From an uncultured Parabacteroides sp. (GTDB lineage: Bacteria; Bacteroidota; Bacteroidia; Bacteroidales; Tannerellaceae), in assembly GCA_944325345.1 (NCBI GenBank), contig CALUZV010000006.1, forward strand, positions 62,001 to 126,000: a DNA stretch of 64,000 nt, written 5' to 3'. The position numbers and the translations under genes were made by a program. Below the pieces are notes generated by a model that made no database searches, was not told the origin of the DNA, and saw nothing but the letters and a program-made list of their open reading frames with translations. Within the stretch, counting starts at the first letter, position 1. Every line of letters starts with the position of its first letter. Below are positions 1,172 to 56,832 of the stretch, piece by piece.

Positions 1172-1441
1172 CTTCCCCAGCAGCTGGAGAAGAAATCGCG
1201 GCTTGCGAAACGCTCCCCAGCAGCTGGAGAAGAAATCGCGGCTTGCGAAACGCTCCCCAGCAACTGGGGAAGAAATCGCGGCTTGCGAAACGCTCCCCAG
1301 CAGCTGGAGAAGAAATCGCGGCTTGCGAAACGCTCCCCAGCAACTGGGGAAGAAATCGCGGCTTGCGAAACGTTCCCCAGTAGCTGGGGAGGAAATCGCG
1401 GCTTGCGAAACGTTCCCCAGCAACTGGGGAGGAAATCGCGG
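1172..1441. repeat. Ladder A: seven 40-bp units of phased palindromes
   Basis: Seven palindromes of the type TCCCCAG-CAR-CTGGRGA start at 1174, 1214, 1254, 1294, 1334, 1374 and 1414, exactly 40 bp apart. Midway between each pair sits a second dyad, TCGC-GGCTT-GCGA (for example centred at 1202, the exact midpoint of 1182 and 1222). The centre varies (CAG, CAA, TAG) while the arms stay complementary. All six frames are nearly free of stops because 40 bp is not a multiple of three and the unit lacks stops; I see no reason to call a protein here. Confidence 0.9.
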
Positions 1442-1476
1442 AACAGAAATTTAAGTTTAACTTTAAATTATAGGGA

Positions 1477-2325
1477 ATGAAAAAGATTGTTTATGATTTT
1501 TCTCGCAGTAAAGCGAAAAATGCACAGCACGTGCAATTTGTAACAGACATCTTGGTCGCTGTCCCCGAGGACGTGGCGACGCAGTATGGATTTGCCGCCC
1601 AGCGTTCGGCTTTCGCGACAGCGGCAGAGGAGGAAATCGCCTGCTTCAAGCCGGACAAGGGCTATCTGGACACGGCGAAAATCGCGGAGGCTGATAAGAA
1701 ACGCGATGAGACGTATTTGTTTAACAAGAAAATCGTGGAGGCTTATGCCGAGTATTGTCCCGACCCCGAACTGCGTGAGGCGGGCAAGACGGCGGTCTTC
1801 GTCTTCCACGAGGCCGGGACGCCGACGGAGCTCGACTATGCCGGCGAGACGGCGACGCTGACCGACGTGGCCGGGACGCTCCGGCAGGAGCCTTACATCT
1901 CGGCTCTGACTAAAATAGGCCGCGAAAGCGCCCCCGACGACATCGCGGAGGCGAACGACGCCTTCAACCAACTGTATAAAACCCGGACGACGGAGGAACG
2001 CAAGCGCGCGTTTGCCTCGAAACTGAAGACGCTCCGGCCTGTTTCGGACACGGCGTTCGACACCTTGTGCGAGACGATCAACGCCTTCTACACCGTCAAT
2101 GAACTGACGACGAAGGACGAAGCGACCTCCGAGGCGCTGGGTGAGGTCATCGACGACGTGAACGACATCCTCGTCCGCCTCCGTAAGACCATCAGTGGCG
2201 AGGCTCCGGAAAGTCCGGACGAACCTGAGACTCCGGAGAACCCCGACGAGCAGCCGGGGGAAGGCGACGGCCAGCCGACGGTGGAAGATCCTGACGAGGA
2301 GGAGGATCGGCCGCAGGTGCAGTAA
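1477..2325 (+). CDS. Uncharacterised helical protein with acidic proline-rich tail (DUF6261-like?)
   Basis: The 282-residue product has no signal peptide. Residues 1 to about 230 look alpha-helical and charged; the last 50 or so are a low-complexity Pro/Glu/Asp tail (ESPDEPETPENPDEQPGEGD...). The general layout recalls the DUF6261 family of Bacteroidales proteins, often found near repeats or in variable regions, but this is a weak recollection. The gene begins 36 bases after ladder A. Function is unknown. Confidence 0.6.
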   Translation: MKKIVYDFSRSKAKNAQHVQFVTDILVAVPEDVATQYGFAAQRSAFATAAEEEIACFKPDKGYLDTAKIAEADKKRDETYLFNKKIVEAYAEYCPDPELREAGKTAVFVFHEAGTPTELDYAGETATLTDVAGTLRQEPYISALTKIGRESAPDDIAEANDAFNQLYKTRTTEERKRAFASKLKTLRPVSDTAFDTLCETINAFYTVNELTTKDEATSEALGEVIDDVNDILVRLRKTISGEAPESPDEPETPENPDEQPGEGDGQPTVEDPDEEEDRPQVQ

Positions 2326-2356
2326 GGAAGAGTTGTCATTTAAATCGAATCAAAGT

Positions 2357-2551
2357 ATGAAAGTCGGAGACAAAGTTTGGATATCGCCCGATTTGACTTT
2401 GCTGAAAGATCGAATAACGGGTACGGTAATCGAAGTAGAAGACAACCCGTTTGTGGGCACGGTGATTTCGGCGGAGACGGAAGATCGGAATGTGTTTTTC
2501 GGACGGGAGGAGATGTTTAAGCCGTTAAAGGAGGAAGTATGTTTGCCATAA
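2357..2551 (+). CDS. Small protein overlapping vapD; candidate antitoxin partner
   Basis: The 64-residue product begins [18 protein letters not shown], a pattern suggestive of a small beta-barrel, and ends with [14 protein letters not shown]. Its last 13 bases overlap the start of vapD in another frame, which implies translational coupling. In Haemophilus VapD is paired with a small upstream antitoxin (VapX); the position here is equivalent, although I see no sequence match to VapX. The antitoxin role is inferred from context only. Confidence 0.6.
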
Positions 2552-2820
2552 GTTTTGATATGACGGTTTCAGAGTTGGAGGCGCATTATGGGACGCCCTA
2601 TAACCGCGCTTATTTTGAAATCAAGGAAAGCTTGAAAAAGAACGATTTTTGTTGGATTCAAGGGAGTACTTATCTGACGGTGAACGGAAATTTGGGCAAT
2701 TTGTATAAGGCAATCAATGATTTGTCGAAATTCGACTGGTTTAAAAAATCTGTGCGTGATATTCGGGCGTACAAGGTGGAAGATTGGTCGGATTTTACGC
2801 AGATTGTGAAGAACTCCTGA
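2539..2820 (+). CDS. vapD: VapD endoribonuclease (Cas2-like fold)
   Basis: The 93-residue protein reads [18 protein letters not shown], then [22 protein letters not shown], and the very conserved block [20 protein letters not shown] before the C-terminus. This matches VapD of Helicobacter and Haemophilus almost motif for motif. VapD is a dimeric ferredoxin-fold RNase related to Cas2. The first beta strand with the catalytic Asp (SFD) is present and the length is normal, so the protein looks intact. It overlaps the upstream gene by 13 bases. Confidence 0.92.
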
Positions 2821-2838
2821 ATAGGCGGGAAATAGAGA

Positions 2839-2915
2839 GGCACGGATTTTGCGGACTGCCACGGTTTTATGTTTTGAAAACTGTGGAATCCGCGAAATCC
2901 GTGCCTTGTTTTTTC
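2839..2915. terminator. Long two-stage hairpin, bidirectional terminator
   Basis: An outer 18-bp stem starting AGGCACGGAT pairs with ATCCGTGCCT (one G-T wobble position). Inside it, a second stem pairs CCACGGTTTT with AAAACTGTGG. A T-rich run (tgttttttc) follows. It lies between the convergent vapD and the minus-strand gene at 2929. Confidence 0.75.
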
Positions 2916-2928
2916 CCGGTTCAGTGTT

Positions 2929-3891
2929 TTATTTCACCCAGATACCGAGGATTTCGCCCATGACGACGGTCGAATCGCCATCGGCCGTCTCGCCCGACTT
3001 GCGGCACTCGATGAGCAACCAGTTGTCGGCCTTGCTGTCCGGCTGGGAGAAGGAGAGGGTGAAGGTGTCGCCATCTTTCAGGCTGAGGCTGCCTTTCTCA
3101 AGGGCGAAAGAGGCGAGGTCTTTCCCGAACATCGAGCCGAAGCCTTTCCAGGTAACGGCTTGTTCCTGGCCGTCTTTCTCGAGAACGCAGGAGCTTTCCG
3201 AAAGCATCGACTTCATGATTTCAGGCAATTTGGCCAGTGTGAAAGTCTGGTAACCCTCGCGCGGAGCCGGTTCCTGGGCAGAGGGGGCGACAGGCTCGGG
3301 CGGGACTTGCTGAGGCAGAGCCGTGGCCGGAGCAGAAGTCTGGGCGAGCCCCATAGCCCCGGAAACACCGATGAAGAGGCTGTCGGCGAAGTCGATAGTC
3401 TTGCGGCGGAACTTGCCGCTGATGCGGTTGAGCTTGCCCTTGTAGATGGCGTGTTCGTCGGTAATCCATTCTTCCGCCTCGTATTCCTCGGGTTCACGCT
3501 GGTAGGGGACGTCGTAGCGGTAGCGGATGTTTTTCAGTTGGACGTCGCACGAATGCCCGTCGATGACGGCGGTAAACTGGTAGCGCATCCGCGCGCGGTC
3601 GAGAGCCAGGGCCGTGCGCGAGAAGACGATATATTCCTCGCCGATGGCGGCAAGCTCGCCCTTCGCCTCATTCTCATAGACCAAGTGGCAGCCCTCGCGG
3701 CTGAAGCGCTCTTTCATCCAGTCGCGGACGGCGAGGAAAATCTGTTGCGACGAGAGCGCGTTGTTCGTCAGTTCTTTTTGGAAAACGACCTGCCCGTCTG
3801 TCAGAGAGACAGCGCCTTGCAGGTATTTCTCTTCGTCCTGAGCCTGAAGCCAGAAAGGGAAGAGAAGCAGAAAAAGGAAAACATTCTTCAT
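2929..3891 (-). CDS. Secreted DUF4468-type protein
   Basis: The 320-residue product has a cleavable signal peptide (MKNVFLFLLLFPFWLQAQ). Residues about 30-150 resemble the DUF4468 domain (a TBP-like fold found in Bacteroidota periplasmic proteins): LSSQQIFLAVRDWM, SREGCHLVYENEAKGELAA, YQFTAVIDGHSCDVQLKNIRY. A Pro/Ala-rich linker (about 185-210) leads to a second domain of roughly 110 residues. Probably periplasmic or outer-membrane associated; the function of the family is unknown. Transcription is divergent from secDF. Confidence 0.75.
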   Translation of the reverse strand: MKNVFLFLLLFPFWLQAQDEEKYLQGAVSLTDGQVVFQKELTNNALSSQQIFLAVRDWMKERFSREGCHLVYENEAKGELAAIGEEYIVFSRTALALDRARMRYQFTAVIDGHSCDVQLKNIRYRYDVPYQREPEEYEAEEWITDEHAIYKGKLNRISGKFRRKTIDFADSLFIGVSGAMGLAQTSAPATALPQQVPPEPVAPSAQEPAPREGYQTFTLAKLPEIMKSMLSESSCVLEKDGQEQAVTWKGFGSMFGKDLASFALEKGSLSLKDGDTFTLSFSQPDSKADNWLLIECRKSGETADGDSTVVMGEILGIWVK

Positions 3892-3917
3892 TGTAGCACA
3901 TTTTAAATTATTTGCGC

Positions 3918-3925
3918 CAAAGATA
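3918..3925 (-). promoter_or_regulatory. -7 box for the DUF4468-type gene (TATCTTTG on minus strand)
   Basis: The complement reads TATCTTTG, 27 bases upstream of the ATG at 3891, matching TAnnTTTG. Confidence 0.6.
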
Positions 3926-3989
3926 GCGAAAGAGAAAGAAATAGCGCGTAAATAATTATTCTAAATACTCTTAATCAAGAAAAAAACTC

Positions 3990-3997
3990 TATCTTTG
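3990..3997 (+). promoter_or_regulatory. -7 box for secDF (TATCTTTG)
   Basis: TATCTTTG followed by an approximately 95-base leader before the secDF ATG at 4099. Confidence 0.6.
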
Positions 3998-4098
3998 CAC
4001 CCTGTTAAATTAGTAGTAGTGTATTCGCGACATCTTGTCAGCGGATTCCTCTTCGGAGCTAACGAAATAAATAATAACAAAATAATTAAGTAGTTCAA

Positions 4099-7000: not shown

Positions 7001-7110
7001 GTATCATCATCGGTACTTATTCGACGCTCTTCGTGGCTACTCCGATAGCTTACGAGTTGCAGAAGCACAAGATCAACAAGCGTGCCGCTGCGGAATCGGA
7101 GAAGAATTAA
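4099..7110 (+). CDS. secDF: Fused protein translocase subunit SecDF
   Basis: The 1003-residue protein joins SecD and SecF, the single-chain arrangement usual in Bacteroidota. It uses the proton motive force to complete Sec export at the inner membrane. SecD features are the N-terminal helix (FAVLLTLVCLFYLSFSV), LGLDLKGGMNVVLEL (about 74-88), a large periplasmic P1 region with an Ala/Glu-rich insertion (about 255-305), and a multi-helix C-terminal part (from about 510). SecF begins near residue 695 and contains KGIDFTGGRNYIVRF (about 717-731) and a second five-helix bundle. The gene is monocistronic, between a promoter box and a strong terminator. Confidence 0.97.
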   Translation: MQNKGFVKVFAVLLTLVCLFYLSFSVVTNHYNNKAAEFAAGDPAKESHYLDSLSTQKVWLGYTLKECREMEIGLGLDLKGGMNVVLELSVPDVVRSLSNNNQDENFNKALDLAYADQATSQKDFIDLFAEEYQKLVPGGRLASIFSTFELKDKITPQSSDAEVISVLKSELQSAIDNSFNVLRTRIDRFGVLSPNIQRLETAGRILVELPGVKEPERVRKLLQGSANLEFWETYKLPEIYQNLIAADNVLAKMLADAAPADSTAEVAADTKAAETEAIQSAAATNEADSLLADLQQEQPEGQSQSEEDFAKQHPLFSLLMINQYNGQLVPSAVVGMAEAKDMEKINEYLNMKQVKDVLPRNLSLKWGVKAVDERERFYELYAIKVTNRDGTPALGGDVVTDANADFVQQAGVSEQQVSMTMNAEGAKAWARLTKENIGRAIAIVLDGLVYSAPNVNDEITGGRSSITGNFTPEEAKDLANVLNSGKMAASVHIVQEDVVGPSLGQEAITAGFISFLIALILLMLYMCAFYGLIPGLIANGALILNIFFTMGILASFQAVLTLPGIAGMVLTLGMAVDANVLIYERTKEELRAGKSLSKAIADGYSNAFSAIFDSNLTSIITGIVLFYFGTGPIRGFATTMIIGLLSNFLTAVFLTRIVYEGLLAKDKLRHLPFTTSISKDLLVNPKINFLGARKVGYLIPVVIVVLGIVSLFTVGLNKGIDFTGGRNYIVRFDQNVKTDEVRNLLDAPLDGAVSVITIGTPNQVRISTNYKITETDPSIDQEIETKLYEGLKPLLADGTTLDEFTSTNVQSSQKVGPSMADDIKNAAFLAVIFSMFCMAAYILLRFRDISFSAGAFASVAITTLCIIAFYTLLWKLLPFSMEVDQTFIAAILTIIGYSINDTVVVFDRIRETIAIYPKRDRYQVINDALNSTLSRTFNTSLTTLVVVLCIFILGGSTIRSFTFAILLGIIIGTYSTLFVATPIAYELQKHKINKRAAAESEKN

Positions 7111-7145
7111 TAGAGAATTTCTTGTTTTATAATTAGGGGAAGGGG

Positions 7146-7181
7146 CTGCCTCAATCGCGAGGCAGCCTTTCTTTTTCCTCC
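7146..7181 (+). terminator. Rho-independent terminator of secDF
   Basis: GGCTGCCTC pairs with GAGGCAGCC around the loop aatcgc, followed by TTTCTTTTT. Confidence 0.9.
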
Positions 7182-7208
7182 GAGGCAATAAGAACCGACC
7201 TATTTCGT

Positions 7209-7216: not shown

Positions 7217-7237
7217 CAGGCACTTTGAAGACTTACG

Positions 7238-9214: not shown

Positions 9215-9248
9215 GGGTCGCGGCTCCGCAGACATATCACCCGACATA

Positions 9249-9336
9249 TTGGGACGCGGATGACGCGGATTACACGGATATAGAGTTGATACATCCGCGT
9301 CATCCGTGTCATCCGCGTCCCAATCTTTTTTTGCAA
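9249..9336 (+). terminator. Long hairpin built of 9-bp words, terminator of porE
   Basis: The left arm is a tandem of gacgcggat / gacgcggat / tacacggat and the right arm is the mirrored atccgcgtc / atccgtgtc / atccgcgtc, giving about 27 paired bases round the loop atagagttgatac. A T-run (tcttttttt) follows. Confidence 0.8.
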
Positions 9337-9374
9337 CTCTGCGGAGAAAAACTTGCGACTCTGCGGAGGAAAAG
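9332..9374 (+). repeat. Two near-identical direct repeats at the HU-gene promoter
   Basis: tgcaactctgcggagaaaa and tgcgactctgcggaggaaaa lie head to tail immediately upstream of the -7 box at 9376, covering where the -33 element should be. They could be an operator; no protein is implicated by the sequence itself. Confidence 0.5.
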
Positions 9375-9375
9375 G

Positions 9376-9383
9376 TATCTTTG
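9376..9383 (+). promoter_or_regulatory. -7 box for the HU-like gene (TATCTTTG)
   Basis: TATCTTTG implies a start site near 9390 and an unusually long leader (about 170 bases) carrying the 21-bp repeats. Confidence 0.6.
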
Positions 9384-9387
9384 TCGC

Positions 9388-9555
9388 AGAGTAATCTATA
9401 AATACCGACGAGAGTTATATAAATCACGTCGAGAGTTATATAGATAACGTCGATATTTATATAACTCACGTCGATATTTATAGATTATATCCCAGAGTTG
9501 TTATATTTTATTCTGGGGAGTCGTAAGTTTTATTTCGCAGAGTCTTAAAGTTTAT
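9388..9555 (+). repeat. Ladder L: degenerate 21-bp repeats in the leader of the HU-like gene
   Basis: Units of the type GAGAGTTATATAnATnACGTC recur at 9410, 9431, 9452 and 9473, exactly 21 bp apart. Looser copies around 9388, 9494, 9516 and 9538 keep AGAGT/GAGTC cores. The dyads are weak compared with the other ladders. Because the -7 box is upstream, the repeats should be in the mRNA leader. AT-rich composition contrasts with the neighbouring genes. Confidence 0.7.
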
Positions 9556-9561
9556 ATCGGT

Positions 9562-10191
9562 ATGTCGGCAGAATATACAATGCAGGAAATAAGGGACTTG
9601 AATGAGGAAGGCAAGACCCTCCTCTACCCAAGGATGGTCATCCGCCGTCAGGTCTCGACGGACGAGATTGTCGAAGGGATGACGGAGAACACAACCTTTG
9701 CCCCGAGCGAGGCGAAAGGCATTGTGCAAGAGTTCGTTCGCGGGATAGCGCGGGCGATGGCCTCGGGGTGTTCGGTGAAGATAGACGGGCTTGGCCTTTT
9801 CACCCCCTCGCTGGGGTTGGCAAAGGGGAAGGCGCGGGAGCAGGCGGACGGCTCCGGCACACGCCGGAACGCCAGCAGTATAGAGATTACGGGGGCTAAC
9901 TTCCGGGCAGACAAGGAGTTCATCTGGGAGATGCGCGACCGTTGCACGCTGAAGCGGGCGAAGGAACAGTTCCGAATGAAGACTTCGAAATATACGGAGG
10001 AGGAGCGGTTTGCGCGGGCGAAGGAGTACCTCGCGCGGCGGCATTCGATGTCGATAAGCACCTATGCGACGCTGGTGGGACTCAGCAAATCGACTGCTGG
10101 TAAGGAGCTAAGGCGTTGGGCAGACGAGCCGGGGCGGGGGATGACGACGGTCGGGCTGGGGACGCATAAGCGCTATGCGCTAAAAGAATGA
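9562..10191 (+). CDS. HU-family DNA-binding protein with C-terminal HTH-like extension
   Basis: The 209-residue protein has an HU/IHF-like domain in roughly residues 20-125 (VSTDEIVEGMTENTTFAPSEAKGIVQEFVRGIARAMASGCSVKIDGLGLFTPSLG), the variant form with a long N-terminal extension common in Bacteroidota. The C-terminal part (about 140-209) contains a helix-turn-helix-like segment (SISTYATLVGLSKSTAGKELRRWAD). It probably binds DNA; targets are unknown. It is monocistronic, with repeats in the promoter and leader that could be autoregulatory. Confidence 0.85.
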   Translation: MSAEYTMQEIRDLNEEGKTLLYPRMVIRRQVSTDEIVEGMTENTTFAPSEAKGIVQEFVRGIARAMASGCSVKIDGLGLFTPSLGLAKGKAREQADGSGTRRNASSIEITGANFRADKEFIWEMRDRCTLKRAKEQFRMKTSKYTEEERFARAKEYLARRHSMSISTYATLVGLSKSTAGKELRRWADEPGRGMTTVGLGTHKRYALKE

Positions 10192-10266
10192 AGAATTAAG
10201 AATGAAGAATGAAGAATGGATTGGGGACCCATAATTCTTCATTCTTCATTCCTCATTCTTCATTAC
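10188..10266. terminator. Low-complexity inverted repeat between convergent genes
   Basis: Tandem gaatgaa/gaattaa words (about 10191-10219) are mirrored by attcttcattcttcattc words (10232-10264) round the centre ggattggggaccc. It would form a long imperfect hairpin on either strand and separates the HU-like gene from galM. Confidence 0.7.
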
Positions 10267-12820: not shown

Positions 12821-12869
12821 AAAAAATTGACGCAGCTTGCGACGCCGTCGCAGACTGCGTTATTTTTTT
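12821..12869. terminator. Bidirectional terminator formed by the first unit of ladder B
   Basis: An A-run (aaaaaa) precedes and a T-run (ttttttt) follows a nested hairpin: outer ACGCAG/CTGCGT and inner TGCGACG/CGTCGCA. It serves folA on one strand and would stop minus-strand transcription on the other. Confidence 0.75.
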
Positions 12870-13035
12870 GAGGTTCCTCGCGACGGCGTCGCGAAGTGCG
12901 TCAAAATTGTGAGGTTGTTTGCGACGGCGTCGCAAGGTGCGTCAAAACTGTGAGGTTGTTCACGACGGCGTCGCAAGGTGCGTCAAAATTTTGATGCGGC
13001 TCGCGACACCGTCGCAGACCGCATCAAAACTCTGA
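12826..13035. repeat. Ladder B: five 41-bp units of phased palindromes
   Basis: Palindromes TTGCGAC-GGC-GTCGCAA and variants start at 12837, 12878, 12919, 12960 and 13001, exactly 41 bp apart. Between the last two, a second palindrome (GCGTCAAAATTTTGATGC) is centred at 12988.5, the exact midpoint. Variants such as TCGCGAC/GTCGCGA keep both arms complementary. The ladder fills the gap between the convergent folA and the lipoprotein gene at 13055. Confidence 0.9.
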
Positions 13036-13054
13036 GGCTATCCTTGGAGGCGAA

Positions 13055-16703: not shown

Positions 16704-16740
16704 AAGCCGGGCAGGGGCAACCTTGTTCCGGCTTTTTTTT
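16704..16740 (+). terminator. Rho-independent terminator of pnp
   Basis: AAGCCGG pairs with CCGGCTT round a 17-base loop, followed by eight T. The last T is also the first base of ladder C. Confidence 0.85.
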
Positions 16741-16885
16741 GCCGACGTGGTCGGGAAGCTGGATGCGCGTGCATCTTCTTTGCCGACGTGGTCGGGAAGC
16801 TAGATGCGCGTGAATCTTCTTTGCCGACGCCGTCGGGAAGCCGGATGCGCGTGAATCTACCTTCCCGACGGCGTCGGCAAAGCGG
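16740..16885. repeat. Ladder C: four 41-bp units of phased palindromes
   Basis: Palindromes TGCCGAC-GTG-GTCGGGA and relatives start at 16740, 16781, 16822 and 16863, exactly 41 bp apart; the last is the inverted form TCCCGAC-GGC-GTCGGCA. A second dyad GATGC-GCGT-GCATC is centred at 16768.5, the exact midpoint of the first two. The final unit overlaps the last eight codons of the minus-strand gene ending at 16857. Confidence 0.9.
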
Positions 16886-17618
16886 ATGCAAGCGAATCGG
16901 GACGCATGGGGAGCGGTTGTTTTTTCCGAAGGAGAGAATCGGGCGGCAACGTGTCGCGTCGGGTGGGGACGATGTCGGGCAACGGCAAGCCGTCCTCGTC
17001 GTAGCGCAGGGTATGATGCCTCTGACGGAGCTCCCGCTTGCGGACTTCCTGGCGGTAAGCACGTTGCTTCTGTTGCATGGCGAGCGAGGGCAGTTGGTCG
17101 TAGGTGCGGTGTGCCGTGGCATTCTTGCGGTTCTTCACCTTTTGGCGATAGGAAGGCGAGAGGGCGTAGCCCAGCGCGGCGGCAAGATTGAACGAGAGTC
17201 CGTCCATCTCGGGGGTAACCATCTGCTCGGCCTGTTTGTCTCGGTCGAAGGCCGAATAACGCGCAGCATCGCGCGGGTCGAGGTTTTGCCCGTAGAGCCA
17301 AAAGACTTGGGGCGGGAGTTCGCGGAGGGGGACGAGGTAGCGGCTCGTGTCGTCGCTTTTCCGCACATAGTCCGAGAAGTCGATGACGATGGGGAGCTTC
17401 GTCCCTTGGAGTTGCATCTGGCCGGCCGCCTCGGGCGCGACGTCGAGGAGGCGGCCCTCGCGGATGGCACGCTCGGTTTCGGGGTCGAGGCGCAACGTAT
17501 CTTTTCCCGACAGGATTCCGGAGAGCCACACCGAGTCGGCCTTGCTCCAAACTTGCGCCCGGAGCACCGCAGGGCAGGCGAGGGCTGCCAGGAGGCCGAT
17601 AAGGAGGTGGAATCTCAT
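16857..17618 (-). CDS. Secreted Bacteroidales protein of unknown function (DUF4858-like?)
   Basis: The 253-residue product has a signal peptide (MRFHLLIGLLAALACPAVLRAQ) and no recognised catalytic motif. Mid-protein sequence includes DFSDYVRKSDDTSRYLVPL and LSFNLAAALGYALSPSYRQK, followed by a very basic region (about 170-215). It resembles uncharacterised DUF4858-type proteins; this family name is from memory. The C-terminus ALPTPSGR is encoded by a palindrome unit of ladder C, so either the ladder invaded the end of the gene or the stop has moved. Confidence 0.7.
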   Translation of the reverse strand: MRFHLLIGLLAALACPAVLRAQVWSKADSVWLSGILSGKDTLRLDPETERAIREGRLLDVAPEAAGQMQLQGTKLPIVIDFSDYVRKSDDTSRYLVPLRELPPQVFWLYGQNLDPRDAARYSAFDRDKQAEQMVTPEMDGLSFNLAAALGYALSPSYRQKVKNRKNATAHRTYDQLPSLAMQQKQRAYRQEVRKRELRQRHHTLRYDEDGLPLPDIVPTRRDTLPPDSLLRKKQPLPMRPDSLASALPTPSGR

Positions 17619-19449: not shown

Positions 19450-20181
19450 ATGGAAGAAAAACTGAAAATCTTCTTTTGTGAAGACGATGAAAACTTGGGT
19501 ATGCTCTTAAGAGAATACTTGCAAGCTAAAGGGTATGTAACTGACCTCTTTGCTGATGGCGAAGCTGGCTACAAAGGTTTCACGAAGACGAAATACGACT
19601 TGTGCGTATTAGACGTGATGATGCCGAAGAAGGATGGTTTCGCTTTGGCTCAGGAAATCCGCTCCATCAATCCGGATATACCTATTATCTTCCTGACGGC
19701 TAAAACCATGAAGGAAGATATCCTCGAAGGTTTCAAGATTGGTGCCGACGATTACCTGACGAAGCCTTTCAGCATGGAAGAACTCTTGCTCCGTATCGAG
19801 GCTATCCTTCGCCGTGTGAAAGGAAAGAAAATGAAAGACATTCCTTTCTATAAACTGGGCAACTTCCTCTTCGATACGCAGAAGCAGACGCTGACTATCG
19901 GCGAGAAGATTACGAAGCTGACTACGAAGGAGTGCGAACTCTTGAGCCTCCTTTGTGCCCATGCCAACGAAATCTTGGAACGCAACTATGCGTTGAAGAC
20001 TATCTGGGTGGACGACAATTATTTCAATGCCCGCAGTATGGACGTGTACATCACGAAGTTGCGTAAGCTCTTGCGCGACGATCCGGGTATCGAAATTATC
20101 AATATCCACGGCAAAGGCTATAAGCTGATTACTCCTTCCGGCGATGAACAGGCTCGCGAAGAGGGTATCCAAGTATTATAA
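19450..20181 (+). CDS. rprY: Response regulator RprY (OmpR family)
   Basis: The 243-residue protein has a receiver domain (about 5-120: FFCEDDENLGMLLREYLQAK, DLCVLDVMMPKKDG with the phospho-Asp near 54, IIFLTAKT, DDYLTKPF) and a winged-helix DNA-binding domain (about 135-235: TTKECELLSLLCAHAN, NARSMDVYITKLRKLL). It matches RprY of Bacteroides and directly follows rprX. Confidence 0.95.
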   Translation: MEEKLKIFFCEDDENLGMLLREYLQAKGYVTDLFADGEAGYKGFTKTKYDLCVLDVMMPKKDGFALAQEIRSINPDIPIIFLTAKTMKEDILEGFKIGADDYLTKPFSMEELLLRIEAILRRVKGKKMKDIPFYKLGNFLFDTQKQTLTIGEKITKLTTKECELLSLLCAHANEILERNYALKTIWVDDNYFNARSMDVYITKLRKLLRDDPGIEIINIHGKGYKLITPSGDEQAREEGIQVL

Positions 20182-24751: not shown

Positions 24752-24756
24752 CTCTA

Positions 24757-24842
24757 ATTGACAATTAACAATGGACAATTGACAATGATTGGGGGCAACC
24801 TGAAAATTGTCAATTGTCAATTCTCAATTGTCAATTGACAAG
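24757..24842. terminator. Low-complexity inverted repeat (acaattg words)
   Basis: gacaattaacaatggacaat words are mirrored by attgtcaattgtcaattctc words, forming a long hairpin after the T9SS cargo gene. Confidence 0.6.
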
Positions 24843-26469: not shown

Positions 26470-26782
26470 CCTTCCCGAAGTGTTCGGAAAGACTGGAAAT
26501 GAATTTTTATTCATTTCGAAATGTTCGGAAGGACAGAAAATGAATTTTTATACATTTCGAAGTGTTCGGAGAGGGCGAAAATGGATTTTCAGAGGTTCCG
26601 AAGTGTTCGGAAGGACCGGAAATAGATTTTTAGTCCTTCCGAGTCGCTCGGAAGCACTGAAAATGGATTTTTATTCATTCTGAGCGACTCGGAAGCCTCG
26701 AAAATGAATTTTTATACATTCCGAGTCGCTCGGAGAGGGCGAAAATGGATTTTCAAAGGTTCCGAGTGGCTCGGAAGGGGTT
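26470..26782. repeat. Ladder E: eight 41-bp units with covarying arms
   Basis: Palindromes start at 26473, 26514, 26555, 26596, 26637, 26678, 26719 and 26760, exactly 41 bp apart. The first four use CGAA/TTCG arms (TTCCGAA-GTG-TTCGGAA) and the last four use CGAG/CTCG arms (TTCCGAG-TCG-CTCGGAA), so both arms changed together. A second palindrome GAAAAT-GG-ATTTTC is centred at 26583.5, 26665.5 and 26747.5, each the exact midpoint between neighbours. Open frames across the ladder are not credible genes. Confidence 0.92.
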
Positions 26783-32851: not shown

Positions 32852-32945
32852 CCGGAAACTCTGGGAGAGTTTCCCCCTGCAACTCTGGAGAGTTACCCCA
32901 CCTAACTCTGGAGAGTTACCAGCGCCAACTCTCCAGAGTTACTTT
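32852..32945. repeat. Ladder F: four palindromes 23-24 bp apart
   Basis: AAACTCT-GGG-AGAGTTT starts at 32856; CAACTCT-GG-AGAGTTA at 32880; TAACTCT-GG-AGAGTTA at 32903; CAACTCT-CC-AGAGTTA at 32926. The last has the reverse-complement centre. It separates the efflux operon from the convergent hexuronate operon and is followed by ctcaactctcaaccc words. Confidence 0.88.
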
Positions 32946-35071: not shown

Positions 35072-35129
35072 TTGAAAGAGTTATGAATGATGAGTTATGA
35101 ATTACGAGTTAAATCTGCTGTTACTTTGC

Positions 35130-37710: not shown

Positions 37711-37925
37711 CGGAGGAAAACTTTCTTCCCTTGGGCATAAACTTCAATAGGTGCCGAGGCAAACTTAAAACCAAGTCTTCGTTTTTATAAACTGAATCTT
37801 TGTTTTTGAAAACTAAACCTTAGTTTATAAAAACGAAGACTTGGTTTTAAGAATCTCTCCCAAGGAAGGGAAGTTTGCCTCGGAATAAACCAAGGTTTAT
37901 CTCGGGACAAAAGGAAGTTTTTCTG
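37711..37925. repeat. Ladder G: mirrored 21-bp array with a 30-bp perfect inverted repeat
   Basis: Four palindromes start at 37768, 37789, 37810 and 37831, exactly 21 bp apart: AAACCAA-GTC-TTCGTTT, AAACTGA-ATC-TTTGTTT, AAACTAA-ACC-TTAGTTT, AAACGAA-GAC-TTGGTTT. The outer two form a perfect 30-bp inverted repeat (CTTAAAACCAAGTCTTC... ). The periodicity continues outward as AAACTT on the left (37718, 37739, 37761) and its complement AAGTTT/AAGGTTT on the right (37871, 37892, 37915). CCGAGGCAAACTT and AAGTTTGCCTCGG also mirror. It sits between divergent promoters of uxaC and the phn operon. Confidence 0.9.
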
Positions 37926-40164: not shown

Positions 40165-40265
40165 CAATTCTCGTCGGGGACACACGACATCCTCGTTTGT
40201 CCCCAACGACACCCTCGTTTGTCCCCAACGAGAAAATCGTGTTTTTCCGACGAAAAACGAGAATG
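40165..40265. repeat. Ladder I: four palindromes exactly 22 bp apart inside the phn operon
   Basis: Dyads TCGTCGG-GGA-CACACGA, TCGTTTG-TCC-CCAACGA (twice) and TCGTGTT-TTT-CCGACGA start at 40171, 40193, 40215 and 40237. It fills the 149-base gap between phnX and phnW, which are on the same strand and act in the same pathway. Confidence 0.85.
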
Positions 40266-43196: not shown

Positions 43197-43295
43197 GATA
43201 ATAACTTCCTCTTCCTATATATCCAGCTTTGACTTTTAACTTTATTTGTTCCCCGCCGCTCCTCTATATATAATAATGTATAGGAAACAACGGCA

Positions 43296-43510
43296 GGAAA
43301 ACTGGCTTTGGTCGGGCGCAAACTTCTCTTTGTCCCGGGGCAAACTTGCCTGTGTGCCGACCCATACTTAAAACCAAGTCTTAGTTTATAAAAACTAAGG
43401 TTCAGTTTTTGAAAACTAAGATTTGGTTTTTATAAACTAAGTCTTTGTTTTAAGAATTCCTCCCGGGGTAGCAAAGTATTCCATGGGGGCAAAGCAAGTA
43501 TTCCTCGGAA
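43296..43510. repeat. Ladder H: mirrored 21/22-bp array related to ladder G
   Basis: Four palindromes start at 43371, 43392, 43413 and 43434, exactly 21 bp apart: AAACCAA-GTC-TTAGTTT, AAACTAA-GGT-TCAGTTT, AAACTAA-GAT-TTGGTTT, AAACTAA-GTC-TTTGTTT. The outer arms pair over 29 bp with two mismatches. The period continues outward as AAACT at 43298, 43320 and 43342 on the left and AAG(T)ATTCC at 43452, 43474 and 43496 on the right, all 22 bp apart. It shares wording and symmetry with ladder G 5.6 kb away. Confidence 0.9.
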
Positions 43511-43570
43511 CAAAACAAACTTTTTTTCGGAATTTTTCGGCAGATGTGTTGTATATTCCGAAATTAGTCG

Positions 43571-43630: not shown

Positions 43631-43704
43631 TCTTCCTTAGCTCAGTTGGTTAGAGCATCTGACTGTTAATCAGAGGGTCCTTGGTTCAAGTCCAAGAGGA
43701 AGAG
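43631..43704 (+). tRNA. tRNA-Asn (GUU), copy 1
   Basis: A 74-base cloverleaf: acceptor TCTTCCT/AGGAAGA, D arm GCTC/GAGC, anticodon arm TCTGA-CTGTTAA-TCAGA with anticodon GTT, T arm CTTGG-TTCAAGT-CCAAG, discriminator G. CCA is not encoded. Confidence 0.97.
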
Positions 43705-43714
43705 CACGAAACAT

Positions 43715-43788
43715 TCTTCTTTAGCTCAGTTGGTTAGAGCATCTGACTGTTAATCAGAGGGTCCTTGGTTCAAGTCCAAGAAGAAGAG
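43715..43788 (+). tRNA. tRNA-Asn (GUU), copy 2
   Basis: Identical to copy 1 except for a compensated pair in the acceptor stem (TCTTCTT with AAGAAGA instead of TCTTCCT with AGGAAGA), which keeps the stem intact. It follows copy 1 by 10 bases. Confidence 0.97.
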
Positions 43789-43797
43789 CACAAACAT

Positions 43798-43871
43798 TCT
43801 TCCTTAGCTCAGTTGGTTAGAGCATCTGACTGTTAATCAGAGGGTCCTTGGTTCAAGTCCAAGAGGAAGAG
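43798..43871 (+). tRNA. tRNA-Asn (GUU), copy 3
   Basis: Identical to copy 1. The three genes are evenly spaced (83-84 bp) and presumably form one precursor ending at the hairpin and T-run at 43872-43910. Confidence 0.97.
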
Positions 43872-43873
43872 CA

Positions 43874-46636: not shown

Positions 46637-46639
46637 TTC

Positions 46640-46870
46640 GTCCGAGGGCTCGGATTTGATGCGGCGAGGCTCTCCGCACGGTTTCCGAGGGGTCGGAAAG
46701 GTATCGGCGAGGCTTTCCGCATGGTTTCCGAGGGCTCGAAAAGGTCGCGGTGAGGCGTTCCGGGTGGTTTCCGAGGGGTCGGAAAGGTATCGGCGAGGCT
46801 CTCCGCATGTATTTCGAGGGCTCGGAAAGGTCCCGGGAGGCTCACCGCATGGTTTCCGAGCCCTCGGAAT
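46640..46870. repeat. Ladder J: six palindromes 42-43 bp apart
   Basis: Dyads of the type TTCCGAG-GG-CTCGGAA start at 46640, 46683, 46726, 46769, 46812 and 46854. Between the first two lies a second quasi-palindrome GCGGCGA-GGC-TCTCCGC centred at 46669, the exact midpoint of 46647.5 and 46690.5; weaker versions follow in later units. The last unit has centre CC instead of GG. The following stretch to 47055 holds no gene that I can see, only a palindrome with arms CCAGAAAAA/TTTTTCTGG (about 46954-46976). Confidence 0.9.
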
Positions 46871-47055
46871 GCTATCTGGTAGCATCTAATACTATTTACA
46901 CTCTTCTTGATAGTATCACTTCGTATGGTTTCTGAAGAAAGATGGTGGCCAGAAAAATGAACGTTTTTTCTGGTCATCTCTTTATGATTTTTATGTTTTA
47001 GAGCATAAAACGTAAAATTCTTATTGTGAAATGTTTGGAAGGATAAATTTTTACT

Positions 47056-52453: not shown

Positions 52454-52472
52454 CTCGTCCCTTAACTTGATG

Positions 52473-52510
52473 ATGAAAAGGGTGCATCTGCATGGGTGCG
52501 CCCTTTTTTC
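52473..52510 (+). terminator. Terminator of the T9SS cargo operon
   Basis: AAAGGGTGC pairs with GCGCCCTTT (one G-T pair) round a short loop, followed by a T-run. Confidence 0.8.
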
Positions 52511-52561
52511 GTATGTTTCATTATTCTGTCGTTTTTGTTCGATTATTCCAGCGATATTCGC

Positions 52562-52569
52562 TACTTTTG
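52562..52569 (+). promoter_or_regulatory. -7 box for the mannonate genes (TACTTTTG)
   Basis: TACTTTTG lies 20 bases before the ATG at 52590. Confidence 0.6.
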
Positions 52570-52589
52570 CCTACATATCAATATAACCT

Positions 52590-53402
52590 ATGAACAACCT
52601 ATTTTCTCTTACAAACAAATCCATCGTCATCACTGGCGGCACGGGTGTGCTCGGCAAGGCGATGGTCCGCCATTTCGCTTCCGAGGGGGCAAATGTCGTG
52701 GTCGTCGGACGCAATGAAGAACGCGGCCGGGCTTTGGTCGATTCCGTTACGGCCAACGGTGGCTCAGCAGTTTTCCAGCAAGGCGATGTCTTGAAGGCTG
52801 AGGACGTGGAACGGATATATGCCGAGACCCTGCGTCGCTTCTCTCGTATCGATGTCTTAATCAATGCTGCCGGAGGCAATATGCCGGGAGCTACTATCGC
52901 TCCGGACCAGACCATCTTCGACCTCGACCTCGCCGCCATGCGCCAGGTAGTCGAACTGAATCTCTTCGGCACAATCCTTCCTACCCAAGTCTTTGCCCGT
53001 GCCATGGCGGAGCAAGGCAAGGGTTCTATCATTAATGTAGCTTCGGAGGCTGCCCTTCGTCCGCTTACTCGTGTGGCGGGTTATGGTGCGGCTAAGGCAG
53101 CAGTCGTCAATTTCACCAAGTACCTTTGTGGCGAACTGGCCATGAAGTTTGGCGAAGGCATCCGCGTCAATGCCATCGCTCCCGGCTTCTTCCTGACGGA
53201 GCAGAACCGTGCGTTATTGACGAATCCCGACGGAAGCCTTACGCCCCGTGCCGAGACTATCCTCGCCCATACGCCTTTCCACCGCTTCGGCGAGCCGGAA
53301 GATTTGCTGGGCACGCTGCAATGGCTGGCCAGCGACGCCTCTCGTTTCGTGTCAGGTACAGTTACGGTAGTCGATGGTGGCTTTGAAGCGTTCTCGATTT
53401 AA
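52590..53402 (+). CDS. SDR-family D-mannonate oxidoreductase (fructuronate reductase)
   Basis: The 270-residue short-chain dehydrogenase has the cofactor motif VITGGTGVLGKAMVRHFA, NAAGGNMPG, the catalytic Tyr/Lys (VAGYGAAKAAV) and IRVNAIAPGFFLTEQNR. Its function is inferred from the adjacent uxuA: it should reduce fructuronate to mannonate, the job done by the unrelated long-chain dehydrogenase UxuB in E. coli. Family members of this type are annotated as D-mannonate oxidoreductase in Bacteroidota. Confidence 0.85.
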   Translation: MNNLFSLTNKSIVITGGTGVLGKAMVRHFASEGANVVVVGRNEERGRALVDSVTANGGSAVFQQGDVLKAEDVERIYAETLRRFSRIDVLINAAGGNMPGATIAPDQTIFDLDLAAMRQVVELNLFGTILPTQVFARAMAEQGKGSIINVASEAALRPLTRVAGYGAAKAAVVNFTKYLCGELAMKFGEGIRVNAIAPGFFLTEQNRALLTNPDGSLTPRAETILAHTPFHRFGEPEDLLGTLQWLASDASRFVSGTVTVVDGGFEAFSI

Positions 53403-53488
53403 TAATCAATTGACAATGGACAATTGACAATGGACAATTGTTTTGTCTTCTCTGTTAATTGTCAATTGTCAATTCTCAATTTTCAATT
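53402..53488. repeat. Low-complexity inverted repeat between the two mannonate genes
   Basis: caattgacaatggacaattgacaatgg words are mirrored by aattgtcaattgtcaattctcaatt words. It is of the same family as the element at 24757 and would form a hairpin within the operon. Confidence 0.65.
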
Positions 53489-53492
53489 GACT

Positions 53493-54665
53493 ATGTATTT
53501 CTGTAAACAATCCTGGCGTTGGTATGGTCCATCCGACCCGGTTTCCCTCTGGGACATCCGGCAGGCTGGAGCTACCGATATCGTTCACGCCCTGCACCAT
53601 ATCCCCAACGGCGAGGTATGGCCGATAGATGAAATTCGCCGTAGGCAACAACTGATTGCGGAAACCGGTCTGACTTGGAGCGTTGTTGAAAGTGTTCCCG
53701 TCCACGAGCATATCAAGACGCAAACGGGCGACTTCCAACTTTATATCGAACATTATAAACAGACGCTGCGCAACCTCGCAGCCTGCGGCATCCGCTGTGT
53801 AACCTACAACTTCATGCCTGTCCTCGACTGGACGCGCACCGACTTAGCCTACCTCATGCCCGACCATTCGCGTGCCCTCCGTTTCGAGCGTGCCGCGTTG
53901 ATGGCTTTCGACCTTTACATCCTCCAGCGCCCTGCGGCGAAGGACGAATATAGTGCGGAAGAGCAGCATCGTGCCCGCCTCCGCTTCGAGCAGATGGGTA
54001 TCAGCGAAAAGGAACAGCTGACGCGGAACATTATCGCCGGTCTGCCTGGAGCCGAGGAGAGCTTCACCCTCGACCAGTTCCGCCACGAATTAGCCCGTTA
54101 CGACGGCATCGATGCCCCGCGCCTCCGCGACCATCTCGTCTATTTCCTTCGGGAGATATGCCCCGTGGCGGACGAATGCGGCGTGAGCCTCGTCATCCAT
54201 CCCGACGACCCGCCCTATCCGCTCTTCGGCCTGCCCCGCATCCTCTCGGCCGCCGACGATTTCCGCCAGTTAGTCGAGCGCGTTCCCAATCCCTCCAACG
54301 GTCTTTGCCTCTGCACCGGTTCCTTAGGCATACGGGCAGACAATGACCTCCCCGCGATGATGCGCGAGTTTGGCGACCGCATCAACTTCGTCCACCTCCG
54401 CAGCACCAAGCGCGACGCCGAAGGCAACTTCTACGAAGCCAACCACTTGGAAGGCGATGTCGATATGCCCGCCATGATGCGTGCCCTCCTCGAAGTGGAG
54501 CAGCGGCGCGGTGTCTCCATCCCCGTCCGTCCCGACCATGGGCACCAAATGGTTGATGACCTCCGCAAAGAAGGCATGAATCCCGGCTATTCCTGCATCG
54601 GACGGCTGAGAGGGCTGGCTGAGTTGAGGGGGCTGGAGATGGGGATGGCGAGTTGTATGTTTTGA
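53493..54665 (+). CDS. uxuA: D-mannonate dehydratase
   Basis: The start [20 protein letters not shown] avoids reading through the upstream inverted repeat and gives 390 residues, the family norm. Visible are [76 protein letters not shown] and [10 protein letters not shown], with the metal-binding His and Cys. It dehydrates mannonate to 2-keto-3-deoxygluconate, which KdgK (encoded at 35130) phosphorylates. Confidence 0.97.
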
Positions 54666-54675
54666 GATAGCAAAG

Positions 54676-54768
54676 AACGCAGATAACATAAAATGGTGTC
54701 GTATGATATTGATTTTTTATCGTTTGATAGAGATTTTATTAAATGATCTGTGTAGTGTTATCTGCGTT
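54676..54768. terminator. Inverted repeat after uxuA (AACGCAGATAACA arms)
   Basis: AACGCAGATAACA (54676-54688) is perfectly complementary to TGTTATCTGCGTT (54756-54768) round an AT-rich 67-base centre. It marks the boundary between the mannonate genes and the restriction-modification genes. Confidence 0.6.
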
Positions 54769-54815
54769 TGAAAGAGTTTGAAAATTTTTCCTTCAAAAAC
54801 TATGCGTATTTTTTG

Positions 54816-54823
54816 TAGTTTTG
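54816..54823 (+). promoter_or_regulatory. -7 box for the restriction-modification genes (TAGTTTTG)
   Basis: TAGTTTTG lies 24 bases before the ATG at 54848. Confidence 0.55.
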
Positions 54824-54847
54824 CCGTGTAATTGAAAAAACGAAATT

Positions 54848-55624
54848 ATGACGAAAGAAAGATTTATCCAATCATTGCGGGAAGCCGTCACCGATTTCGC
54901 TCCAGCTATCAGCTGTGCGGACGGCAGTTGGGCGGTGAAAGGCTTCATCGACATTCACAAAACCATATATACAATTTCCACCGACACCAAGATTGTTTCC
55001 AAGATATTAGAGCTTTATATCTTCCCTAAAATATTGGATTTTGCCAACCGAAACGAGTTGGAGATAGAATTGACCAAAGAACAGAATTTCTATCCCGACA
55101 TCACTTTCAAGGACAAAAAAGGCAATCTGTTTGCAGTAGATTTGAAGAGCAGTTATCGGAAGACGGAAACCCATATCAACGGTATGACATTGGGAGCGTT
55201 CACCGGCTACTTCCGCGACCGGAAAAGCCTGAAAAATATCACTCACCCGTATGAAGAGTATAAAGCCCATATTGTATTAGGTATTATCTATACGCCGGTA
55301 GAAGGCATTGACGAGCGGCAGACATATGCTTTGGAGCAATTGGAAGACATTATTTCCGTGGTGAAAGACTTTGAGTTTTTCGTGCAGGAGAAATGGAAGA
55401 TTGCTGCTGATCGTCCGGGAAGCGGAAACACGAAGAACATAGGCTCTATCAGCAACATAGAAGATTTGAAGAATGGCAACGGACCGTTTGCTTCTTTGGG
55501 CGAGGCCGTTTTCGATGACTATTGGACGCATTACCTTACAAAAGATATGGCGAAAGCTGCTGAATTGGCAGAGCCTTATTACAGCAATCTGTCTGAGTAT
55601 AAACGATTCAAGAGCATTTCCTGA
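54848..55624 (+). CDS. EcoRV-like type II restriction endonuclease
   Basis: The 258-residue protein aligns with EcoRV along its length (245 residues). Matching blocks are SDTKVLS-like TDTKIVSKILELYIFP, QNFYPDITF (first catalytic Asp), the FAVDLKSSYRKTE active-site DxK, TLGAFTGYFRD, YEEYKAHIVLGIIYT, and the DNA-contacting PGSGNTKNIGSI. The catalytic PD...DxK set is complete, so it should be active. Specificity for GATATC is predicted from the conserved recognition loops, not shown. The methylase gene follows by 2 bases. Confidence 0.92.
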   Translation: MTKERFIQSLREAVTDFAPAISCADGSWAVKGFIDIHKTIYTISTDTKIVSKILELYIFPKILDFANRNELEIELTKEQNFYPDITFKDKKGNLFAVDLKSSYRKTETHINGMTLGAFTGYFRDRKSLKNITHPYEEYKAHIVLGIIYTPVEGIDERQTYALEQLEDIISVVKDFEFFVQEKWKIAADRPGSGNTKNIGSISNIEDLKNGNGPFASLGEAVFDDYWTHYLTKDMAKAAELAEPYYSNLSEYKRFKSIS

Positions 55625-55626
55625 AT

Positions 55627-56694
55627 ATGAGCCAAGCACAATTATCACTATTTGATGAGTTGCCGACCGTAGCCAAATTCCCTACCACACGCTACCAAGG
55701 AAGCAAGTTGAAGTTCGTCGATTGGATATGGGACTGCATCAAGGACATTTCCTTCCAAACGGCACTCGACGCGTTTGGCGGTACAGGTTGCGTGGCATAT
55801 CGGTTGAAGGAAGAGGGCAAGGCCGTTACTTATAACGACCTGCTTCCGTTCAATTACCTGATTGGAAAGGCATTGATAGAAAACCGGGATGTAGTGTTGG
55901 ATGATTGGGAAATGGAAATGTTGTTGAAGCGACAAGACGGAATAACCTATCCGCATTTCATCGAAGATACGTTCAAGGACATATATTTCACGGACGAGGA
56001 GAACCGTTGGCTGGATATCGTTTCCTGCAATATCCGGCACATTGCCAATCCCTACAAGCAGGCGATTGCCTATTTCGCCTTGTTCCAGTCGTGCATTATC
56101 AAACGCCCGTACAATTTGTTCCATCGCAAGAATCTTTATGTCCGTTTGCAGGACGTGGAACGCAGTTTCGGCAATAAAAAGACGTGGGACACCCCGTTCG
56201 AGGTACATTTCCGCAAGTTCGTCAAAGAAGCCAATGATGCGGTGTTCGACAATCATCGTTTTTGTCGTGCCAACAACCAAGACGTGTTTGACATTACCTC
56301 TTCATACGATTTGGTGTACATTGACACGCCTTATCTGAACGAAGCAGGCGTAGGCGTGGATTATGCCGACTTCTATCATTTCCTGAACGGGTTGGTAGAT
56401 TACGAACATTGGAGTAATCGGATAGATTATTCCAGCAAGCACCTTCGCCTAAAGCGCACAGCTAATGTCTGGACGGATGCCTGCCACATCAAAGGAGCTT
56501 TCAATCATTTGTTTAATCAGTTTAAAGATAGCATTCTGGCTATTTCTTATCGCTCCAACGGAATCCCTTCCATAGATGAATTGATTGGATTGTTGGAAAC
56601 GCAAGGACGAAAGGTTACGGTTTATCAGAGCGGAAAAATCAAATATGTATTGAGCAATCAGCACTCCAATGAAGTATTGATTGTGGCAAGATAA
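55627..56694 (+). CDS. DNA adenine methyltransferase of the EcoRV-like system
   Basis: The 355-residue protein has the Dam/alpha-class order: RYQGSKLKFVDWIW, the AdoMet-binding FGGTGCVAYRLK, and the catalytic motif LVYIDTPYLNEAGV, where DTPY replaces the commoner DPPY. It should protect the endonuclease target by N6-adenine methylation. GATATC occurs in this window (for example 12206, 15745 and 19717), so a protective methylase is required if the nuclease is active. Confidence 0.92.
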   Translation: MSQAQLSLFDELPTVAKFPTTRYQGSKLKFVDWIWDCIKDISFQTALDAFGGTGCVAYRLKEEGKAVTYNDLLPFNYLIGKALIENRDVVLDDWEMEMLLKRQDGITYPHFIEDTFKDIYFTDEENRWLDIVSCNIRHIANPYKQAIAYFALFQSCIIKRPYNLFHRKNLYVRLQDVERSFGNKKTWDTPFEVHFRKFVKEANDAVFDNHRFCRANNQDVFDITSSYDLVYIDTPYLNEAGVGVDYADFYHFLNGLVDYEHWSNRIDYSSKHLRLKRTANVWTDACHIKGAFNHLFNQFKDSILAISYRSNGIPSIDELIGLLETQGRKVTVYQSGKIKYVLSNQHSNEVLIVAR

Positions 56695-56756
56695 GCTCCT
56701 TCTCCCTCCAACCCCCATCTTCCGATAACTATGCCCTCATCCTCCTTCTCCCTTAA

Positions 56757-56832
56757 GCACCTACTTCCAACCTTGGAAGTAATATGTCTTGCTTTAGGAT
56801 AACATTATACTTCCAAGGTTGGAAGTAACCTT
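56757..56832. repeat. Ladder K: two palindromes 46 bp apart
   Basis: TACTTCCAA-CC-TTGGAAGTA (7-bp arm starts 56764) and TACTTCCAA-GG-TTGGAAGTA (56810) have complementary centres, so one is an inverted copy of the other. A weak dyad (ATGT...ACAT) is centred at 56794.5, the exact midpoint. It lies between the convergent methylase and the gene at 56845. Confidence 0.85.

Follow-up and report, generated by a model that had tools for sequence, protein, structure and literature searches.

Ladders of phased dyads upstream of HU-HIG and DUF6261 genes in Parabacteroides as candidate private binding arrays

The window analyzed here is a 64,000-nucleotide stretch from an uncultured Parabacteroides sp. 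of the Tannerellaceae (assembly GCA_944325345.1, contig CALUZV010000006.1, positions 62,001 to 126,000), whose intergenic regions carry ladders of short quasi-palindromes (dyads) at regular spacing. Two classes occur. Class I ladders have a period of 20-24 bp, and class II ladders have a period of 40-43 bp with two alternating dyads. Class I ladders are enriched upstream of genes for HU-HIG proteins and class II ladders upstream of genes for DUF6261 proteins, two families that are expanded here, and the sequence of a ladder is as a rule private to one paralog. These features suggest that each ladder is a private array of sites at which several dimers of a single DNA-binding paralog would bind, an explanation that we consider probable, though well short of secure. 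We infer that the proteins bound there are those of the HU-HIG or DUF6261 families themselves.

Geometry of the ladders

The genome of the window (G000; 3.27 Mb, 44 contigs) was surveyed for arrays in the window and twenty other stretches, 447 kb in total. Tandem arrays were called with Tandem Repeats Finder (TRF), and genes with our own hexamer-scored open reading frame (ORF) caller rather than a standard program. With a tRNA-Asn triplet of period 83 set aside, which changes the count from 70/72 to 69/71, 69 of the 71 tandem arrays in intergenic DNA repeat every 20-24, 40-46, 80-84 or 121-126 bp, at least two of the 69 (L098 6467 and L100 16416) being 7-bp repeats read as 21 bp and not ladders. 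No intergenic array in these 447 kb has a period of 60-69 or 100-110 bp. Array density is about 16 per 100 kb in this sample and ranges within the genus from 0 (G006) to 20 per 100 kb (G009); 228 kb from eight genomes of other families contain one such array.

An earlier, sequence-only reading of the window had described dyads phased at 20-23 bp in private sequences. The genome scan bears out the phasing, since 280 pairs of dyads lie 20-23 bp apart compared with 82 in one composition-matched control (a first-order Markov shuffle in 500-bp blocks), a 3.4-fold excess. It also bears out that one geometry recurs in many sequences, so that no single dispersed repeat is involved. The arrays are not CRISPRs, the units being contiguous and wholly repeated with no unique spacers. 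Nor are they terminators, in agreement with that reading: array-bearing gaps of any length are divergent in 13 cases, tandem in 34 and convergent in 11, compared with 31, 83 and 22 among all gaps of at least 100 bp, and there is no preference for 3' gaps overall. Convergent gaps are less frequent for class I (2/30) than for class II (10/35).

A second, different palindrome had been noted midway in units of 40-46 bp. It follows from the symmetry of the array, because an array that is its own reverse complement and has a mirror at c must also have one at c + p/2, where p is the period; the midway dyad expresses the same symmetry again and is no second coincidence. The symmetry is not universal. 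It exceeds that of shuffles (p<0.05) in 23 of 37 class II consensus units and in 13 of 35 class I units. The two halves of a class II unit are unlike each other, with identities mostly of 0.25-0.5. In one contig of 10231 bp (G000:C40, L091) a class II array lies at each end, and ladders may therefore break assemblies.

Class I ladders and HU-HIG genes

The window itself contains an HU-HIG gene with its ladder. The ladder (9331..9559, + strand), which the sequence-only reading had overlooked, comprises about ten dyads: four core dyads 21 bp apart between flanks whose dyads are about 22 bp apart. The gene (9562..10191, + strand, 209 amino acids) starts directly after it. Its product passes the Pfam cut-off for HU-HIG (PF18291, E 4.2e-17) and matches TIGR01201, a family described with many Porphyromonas gingivalis members. 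It is predicted to have the HU fold, and its structure model shows an HU domain joined to a predicted winged helix, the combination that is predicted for HU-HIG proteins as a family. Just 5' of the ladder lies a long hairpin (9248-9324) with arms of 9-bp repeats (GACGCGGAT).

A PF18291 scan placed HU-HIG genes beside several ladders. The association was measured in 43 of 87 HU-HIG matches from eight genomes of the genus, taken best matches first and thus not at random, with a ladder counted when it lay within 250 bp upstream and with other genes having an upstream gap of at least 120 bp as controls. A class I ladder precedes 22 of the 43 HU-HIG genes and 45 of 312 other genes (odds ratio 6.2, p 2.5e-7). 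The proportion is 13/20 among the long HU-HIG forms (at least 185 amino acids) and 7/10 in G000 alone. These ladders typically have about four units, lie at about -150 to -60, and as a rule have a dyad of their own at each gene; locus L309 has two dyads only. The earlier suggestion that HU-like proteins might occupy the arrays pointed in the right direction for class I. Four genomes of four other families, for which there is no control set, have a ladder at 10 of 20 HU_rel genes, a count that leaves out 11 further loci returned by the search, whose positions seem to have been registered wrongly; by eye, one more HU_rel locus of those families (L363) looks as if it has a ladder.

Similarity between HU-HIG proteins correlates with similarity between their ladders (Mantel r 0.28, p 0.0005, n=23). 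The sequence-only reading had raised recognition of shape or spacing. There is no need to invoke recognition of spacing alone, since either class of ladder goes with one paralogous family, with sequences that are as a rule private to each paralog.

Class II ladders and DUF6261 genes

Pfam searches of 58 of the 65 neighbors of class II arrays returned DUF6261 three times. In the window, array A (1174..1441, + strand; a 40-bp unit with two dyads, TRF 40 bp x 6.7) ends 35 bp 5' of a DUF6261 gene (1477..2325, + strand). The product, of 282 amino acids, has an all-helical model and the C-terminal tail DRPQVQ, and it passes the Pfam cut-off for DUF6261 (PF19775, E 4.3e-23) with 82.4 bits against a threshold of 27.

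Among 40 of 115 DUF6261 matches from four genomes, again the best matches first and not a random sample, 34 are preceded by a class II array at a distance of at most 300 bp (16/20, 8/10, 5/5 and 5/5 in the four genomes). Other genes of the same genomes have one in 23 of 194 cases (odds ratio 42, p 1e-19). No class II array was found downstream of these 40 genes. DUF6261 genes that happened to fall in random stretches give a similar picture, with an upstream class II array at four of five. The distribution among genomes largely agrees. G000, G009 and G003 have 52, 34 and 15 DUF6261 matches and class II arrays are frequent in the samples of all three, G006, G008 and G011 have no DUF6261 match and no class II array in their samples, and G010 has 14 matches and one class II array in a 58-kb sample.

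A second feature connects DUF6261 with HU-type proteins. The ending P-[PVQ]-VQ occurs in 7 of 1564 long ORFs, which are five DUF6261 proteins and two HU-Ig proteins. Genome-specific C-terminal tails are found on HU-HIG and DUF6261 proteins of G000, G009, G003, G012 and G011, in the forms P-x-VQ, SP-x-VV or SPGTV, RPT, RPGEL and RPHAV, after an often acidic stretch. They are common to unrelated families within one genome (for example at the 3' end of window 1477-2325 and in L251-L259 and L278-L282), and the G000 tail is also present on HU-Ig proteins (PF14848+DUF4469). The tails of G009, G003, G012 and G011 had no matches in random samples of those genomes. All eight HU_rel proteins fetched from G071, which belongs to another family, likewise share a tail, EAPDP plus two residues (L344-L351). 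Because of the upstream arrays and the tail held in common with HU-type proteins of the same genome, DUF6261 proteins would probably play the same part at class II ladders as HU-HIG proteins at class I.

Copies within and between genomes

The ladder sequences had been described as private to their loci. This is true within the window and not in the genome, where A, B, C, E, F, I, J, the G/H pair and the 9.3-kb ladder all have relatives elsewhere. Some of the relatives lie before genes of the expected families: a second G000 DUF6261 gene (L404) is preceded by an array that shares 81% identity with array E over 157 bp, and an HU-HIG gene (G000:C14:28506) by a ladder that shares 94% identity with array I over 48 bp. 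Matches to HU-HIG upstream regions fall at 42 loci of the same genomes, in the samples, compared with 11 in other genomes, and these 11 are copies of one family in G008 (the GH family, described below) fetched for that match. Matches from L255, L265, L267, L268 and part of L266 are to other dispersed hairpins and not to ladders. In all, nine HU-HIG genes have a ladder partner.

Two HU-HIG ladder families have a fixed form of four dyads. The GH family, to which arrays G and H of the window belong, has 21 loci in G000 and 16 in G008, as counted from match lists, and is missing from the 36 other genomes searched in the genus, among them G003. The loci examined (19/21 in G000 and 11/16 in G008) have four dyads 21 bp apart with near-identical outer ends. 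In G000, more motifs at a spacing of about 22 bp adjoin the copies on either side, and the G008 copies are bare, with sharp ends. Of 19 G000 loci, 12 are in divergent gaps, 7 in tandem gaps and none in convergent gaps; one copy lies upstream of an HU-HIG gene (G000:C8:6256). The second family is that of L272, the ladder of an HU-HIG gene of G011. It occurs at eleven loci in G011, its own included, and in a search of 38 genomes its sole match outside G011 was upstream of an HU-HIG gene of G010. Its dyads have the form GATCAC-N4-GTGATC with a free center, four per locus in 10 of the 11 loci, a form that would suit a dimer with two points of contact.

The closest relative of G000 is G003, about 80% identical. 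The sequence-only reading had named as a refutation that orthologous gaps in close relatives lack the arrays and show ordinary random tandem duplications, and half of this is seen. No arrays occur in the G003 gaps orthologous to those of arrays B and C and of the 9.3-kb ladder, and that of I is only about 53 bp long. The arrays are nevertheless no random tandem duplications, since ladders with this geometry occur elsewhere in G003, among them a 41-bp ladder of other sequence upstream of the gene bordering gap E. At 9.2-10.3 kb both the ladder and the HU-HIG gene are absent from the orthologous G003 gap, which is 72 bp long, compared with about 1,050 bp in the window.

This joint absence slightly raises the standing of an alternative in which ladder and gene form a mobile cassette and ladder-only copies are its non-autonomous offspring, as in systems of repetitive extragenic palindromes (REPs) with REP-associated tyrosine transposases (RAYTs) or in miniature inverted-repeat transposable elements (MITEs). 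The confinement of GH to two genomes of the genus and the sharp ends of its G008 copies also suit a cassette. Yet the searches made gave no transposase signature in HU-HIG or DUF6261, and none of 13 genomes of the genus yielded a Y1 transposase. Inspection by eye of the surroundings of 11 G008 copies revealed no consistent target duplication, and the GH loci examined all have the same number of dyads, four. We consider a cassette unlikely.

Half-sites versus stems

An initial tally of covariation between the arms seemed strong, at 375 both-sided changes against 119 in shuffles, but had lumped together the two alternating class II dyads. With like compared with like, within-unit pairing over all arrays is 0.815 against 0.804 (p 0.007). 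The idea that stems are maintained was dropped because this excess is small and because only one of eight unit tests of GH arm covariation showed an excess (unit 1 in G000, 0.90 versus 0.87, p 0.007). The complementarity of GH unit 2 to unit 3 is lower when both come from one copy than when they come from different copies (permutation p 0.9998 and 0.9976 in the two species). Sense-strand G.U pairs are not in excess, G.T and A.C numbering 30 and 37 in HU-HIG arrays, 102 and 92 in DUF6261 arrays, and 80 and 102 in tandem-gap arrays. These results fit independent half-sites that a protein would read, and they argue against stems, whether in RNA or as cruciforms.

They bear on two further alternatives. 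Neutral minisatellites, in which slippage and template switching at quasi-palindromes would make and keep the dyads, agree with the fast turnover between species, the variable copy number of class II, loop inversions (TCG/CGA in array E, GCC/GGC in B and C) and the small pairing excess. Each of the two classes nevertheless goes with a specific gene family, and class II does so solely on the upstream side; neither the lower complementarity of GH units 2 and 3 within copies nor the fixed unit number of two families would be expected. This explanation is already disfavored, and we rate it as improbable. No better placed are RNA hairpins serving as attenuators or stabilizers in 5' or 3' untranslated RNA. 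Many arrays do lie 30-150 bp from a start codon or just 3' of a stop codon, and every dyad could pair in RNA, but the sense strand has no G.U excess, the arms hardly co-vary, and the only Rfam matches in the window are three tRNAs.

Proposed function

The explanation by private binding arrays can be stated as follows. One HU-HIG dimer would occupy each dyad and read the two half-sites through its C-terminal winged helices. One dimer would cover about two helical turns, so that neighbors might stack or touch along one face of the DNA. Four or more dimers in a row could form a strong switch before the protein's own gene, probably an autoregulatory one, and dispersed copies would bring other loci under the same protein, as a regulon or as nucleoid anchor sites. 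Membership in one protein family would then account for the spacing common to all paralogs, and a separate site for each paralog for the private sequence. In class II, DUF6261 might act likewise on the two-dyad unit. An HU-type partner might read these ladders instead, because the predicted fold of DUF6261 shows no sign of DNA binding. As to outcome, the L272 copies in convergent gaps favor nucleoid folding, and the upstream bias of GH favors gene control.

Several results weigh against this explanation. By the upstream test 21 of the 43 HU-HIG genes have no ladder, and winged helices were also found in proteins that do not bind DNA, in several rows of the structure searches. The neighbors of GH have no common function among 20 scanned proteins, and three of the 11 L272 copies lie in convergent gaps, unlike ordinary operators. 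For DUF6261, the all-helical model matched no PDB entry at E <=0.001 and no recognized DNA-binding fold, in Foldseek and VIA-align lists that rank only part of the chains, so that a fold missing from them is uninformative. Upstream arrays of DUF6261 genes match 13 loci of the same genome and five of other genomes, and so are less private than HU-HIG ladders. DUF6261 proteins and their ladders correlate over all pairs (r 0.17, p 0.001) and weakly when the pairs are restricted to those between genomes (r 0.074, p 0.055). G005 has 11 DUF6261 matches and no class II array in a 58-kb sample. For arrays B, C, F, J and K, no cognate turned up in the upstream regions of 10 HU-HIG genes and of 23 of the 52 DUF6261 matches of G000. 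Finally, in 79 loci (1,351 kb) of other Bacteroidota, 27 of 57 intergenic arrays fall in the same period bins, mostly at 21-24 bp.

The lack of a recognized DNA-binding fold in DUF6261, together with the ladders without a cognate, could also mean that a third, unrelated regulator binds the ladders and controls both families, but with a single regulator it would be hard to see why private sequences follow the similarity between HU-HIG proteins, and this is the least credible of the alternatives.

Private binding arrays can be extended to a more speculative scheme, which we put forward only tentatively. Each HU-HIG or DUF6261 paralog would own one ladder sequence, with a master copy upstream of its gene and further copies at chosen intergenic sites. 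The genome-specific C-terminal tail common to short HU-HIG, HU-Ig and DUF6261 proteins would dock all of them on one partner, and the set of ladders would lay out the nucleoid as a private address code.

The ladders supply candidate DNA partners for two poorly understood Bacteroidales families, and they turn puzzling intergenic repeats of 22, 23 and 41 bp into testable binding arrays. If the explanation is true, the ladders are address labels spread over the genome, and the numbers of paralogs and of ladders gauge a lineage-specific, fast-evolving layer of chromosome organization or gene control.

Relation to known systems

BrickBuilt and PgRS/MITE464 of P. gingivalis are intergenic tandem repeats of 23 and 41 nt, and also of 22 nt, with predicted stem loops and about 10-20 copies each, and are described as MITEs with IS5-like terminal repeats (PMC4596501). 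The sequence-only reading had suggested kinship with them. They resemble the ladders as short intergenic tandem repeats, and arrays of 23 bp occur in G000 too, which is not a Porphyromonas genome. BrickBuilt has the IS5-like terminal repeats GAGACCTTTGCA / TGCAAAGGTCTC, and kinship finds no support here, as an exact search of G000 for the BrickBuilt/ISPg terminal repeat TGCAAARGTCTC gave 0 forward and 0 reverse matches. The sections of that account considered here also propose no cognate protein family for BrickBuilt/PgRS (PMC4596501). If the explanation proposed above is true, the P. gingivalis repeats may be of the same kind, and the many P. gingivalis members of TIGR01201 would agree with this. 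In a genome of another family (G140:C85:9469-9732), the BrickBuilt/ISPg terminal repeat TGCAAAGGTCTC occurs ten times at multiples of 21 bp.

REPs and bacterial interspersed mosaic elements (BIMEs) with their RAYTs resemble the ladders: they too are intergenic palindromes, some copies of which adjoin the gene of a cognate protein. They differ in that the proteins here are HU and helical proteins and the geometry is fixed and phased (PMC3733652). A RAYT link was rejected: PF01797 (Y1/HUH transposase) is found in 0/13 genomes of the genus and in 7/8 genomes of other families. BldC filaments are similar in that a winged-helix-type regulator multimerizes along phased repeats; by the portion of the source used, they involve one protein on head-to-tail direct repeats, not dyads, and no paralog-private code (PMC5859096). 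No paper on such arrays appeared among those listed in literature searches on HU-HIG, on HU-domain proteins of Bacteroidetes or on DUF6261.

Other arrays and features of the window

Of the ten arrays listed by the sequence-only reading, nine (A, B, C, E, F, G, H, I and J) are confirmed in place and period by the sequence and TRF. The tenth is weak: K (56764..56828) consists of two ACTTCCAA..TTGGAAGT dyads 46 bp apart and was not detected by TRF. Class II is represented, besides A, by four arrays. B (12839..13037; 41 bp, dyad GCGAC-GGC-GTCGC) and C (16738..16898; 41 bp, dyad CCGAC-N3-GTCGG, with the final unit inverted) lie in convergent gaps, E (26475..26777; 41 bp, two alternating dyads) lies in a divergent gap, and J (46641..46876; 43 bp, dyad CCGAGGGCTCGG) lies after a hairpin that looks, by eye, like a terminator. 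The remaining class I arrays are F (32857..32942; 23 bp, dyad AACTCTGGAGAGTT), I (40184..40240; 22 bp) and the GH members G (37768..37849) and H (43371..43452), each with four dyads 21 bp apart.

Hairpins or runs of 7-bp repeats (AATTGAC, AAGAATG, GAGTTAT) occur at 10184-10264, 24756-24841, 35078-35111 and 53402-53494, and the element at 53.4 kb has many relatives across genomes of the genus. Window positions 20169 and 43973 are 140 bp apart in G003, the intervening ~24 kb being elsewhere or missing there. Three near-identical tandem tRNA-Asn(GTT) genes, 83-84 bp apart, occupy 43631-43872, and seven relatives also have about three copies. From the S41 peptidase gene to the tRNA genes the distance is about 930-1050 bp in seven relatives (L231-L237); here it is 268 bp to the corresponding point (43253-43521), and this shorter stretch contains ladder H.

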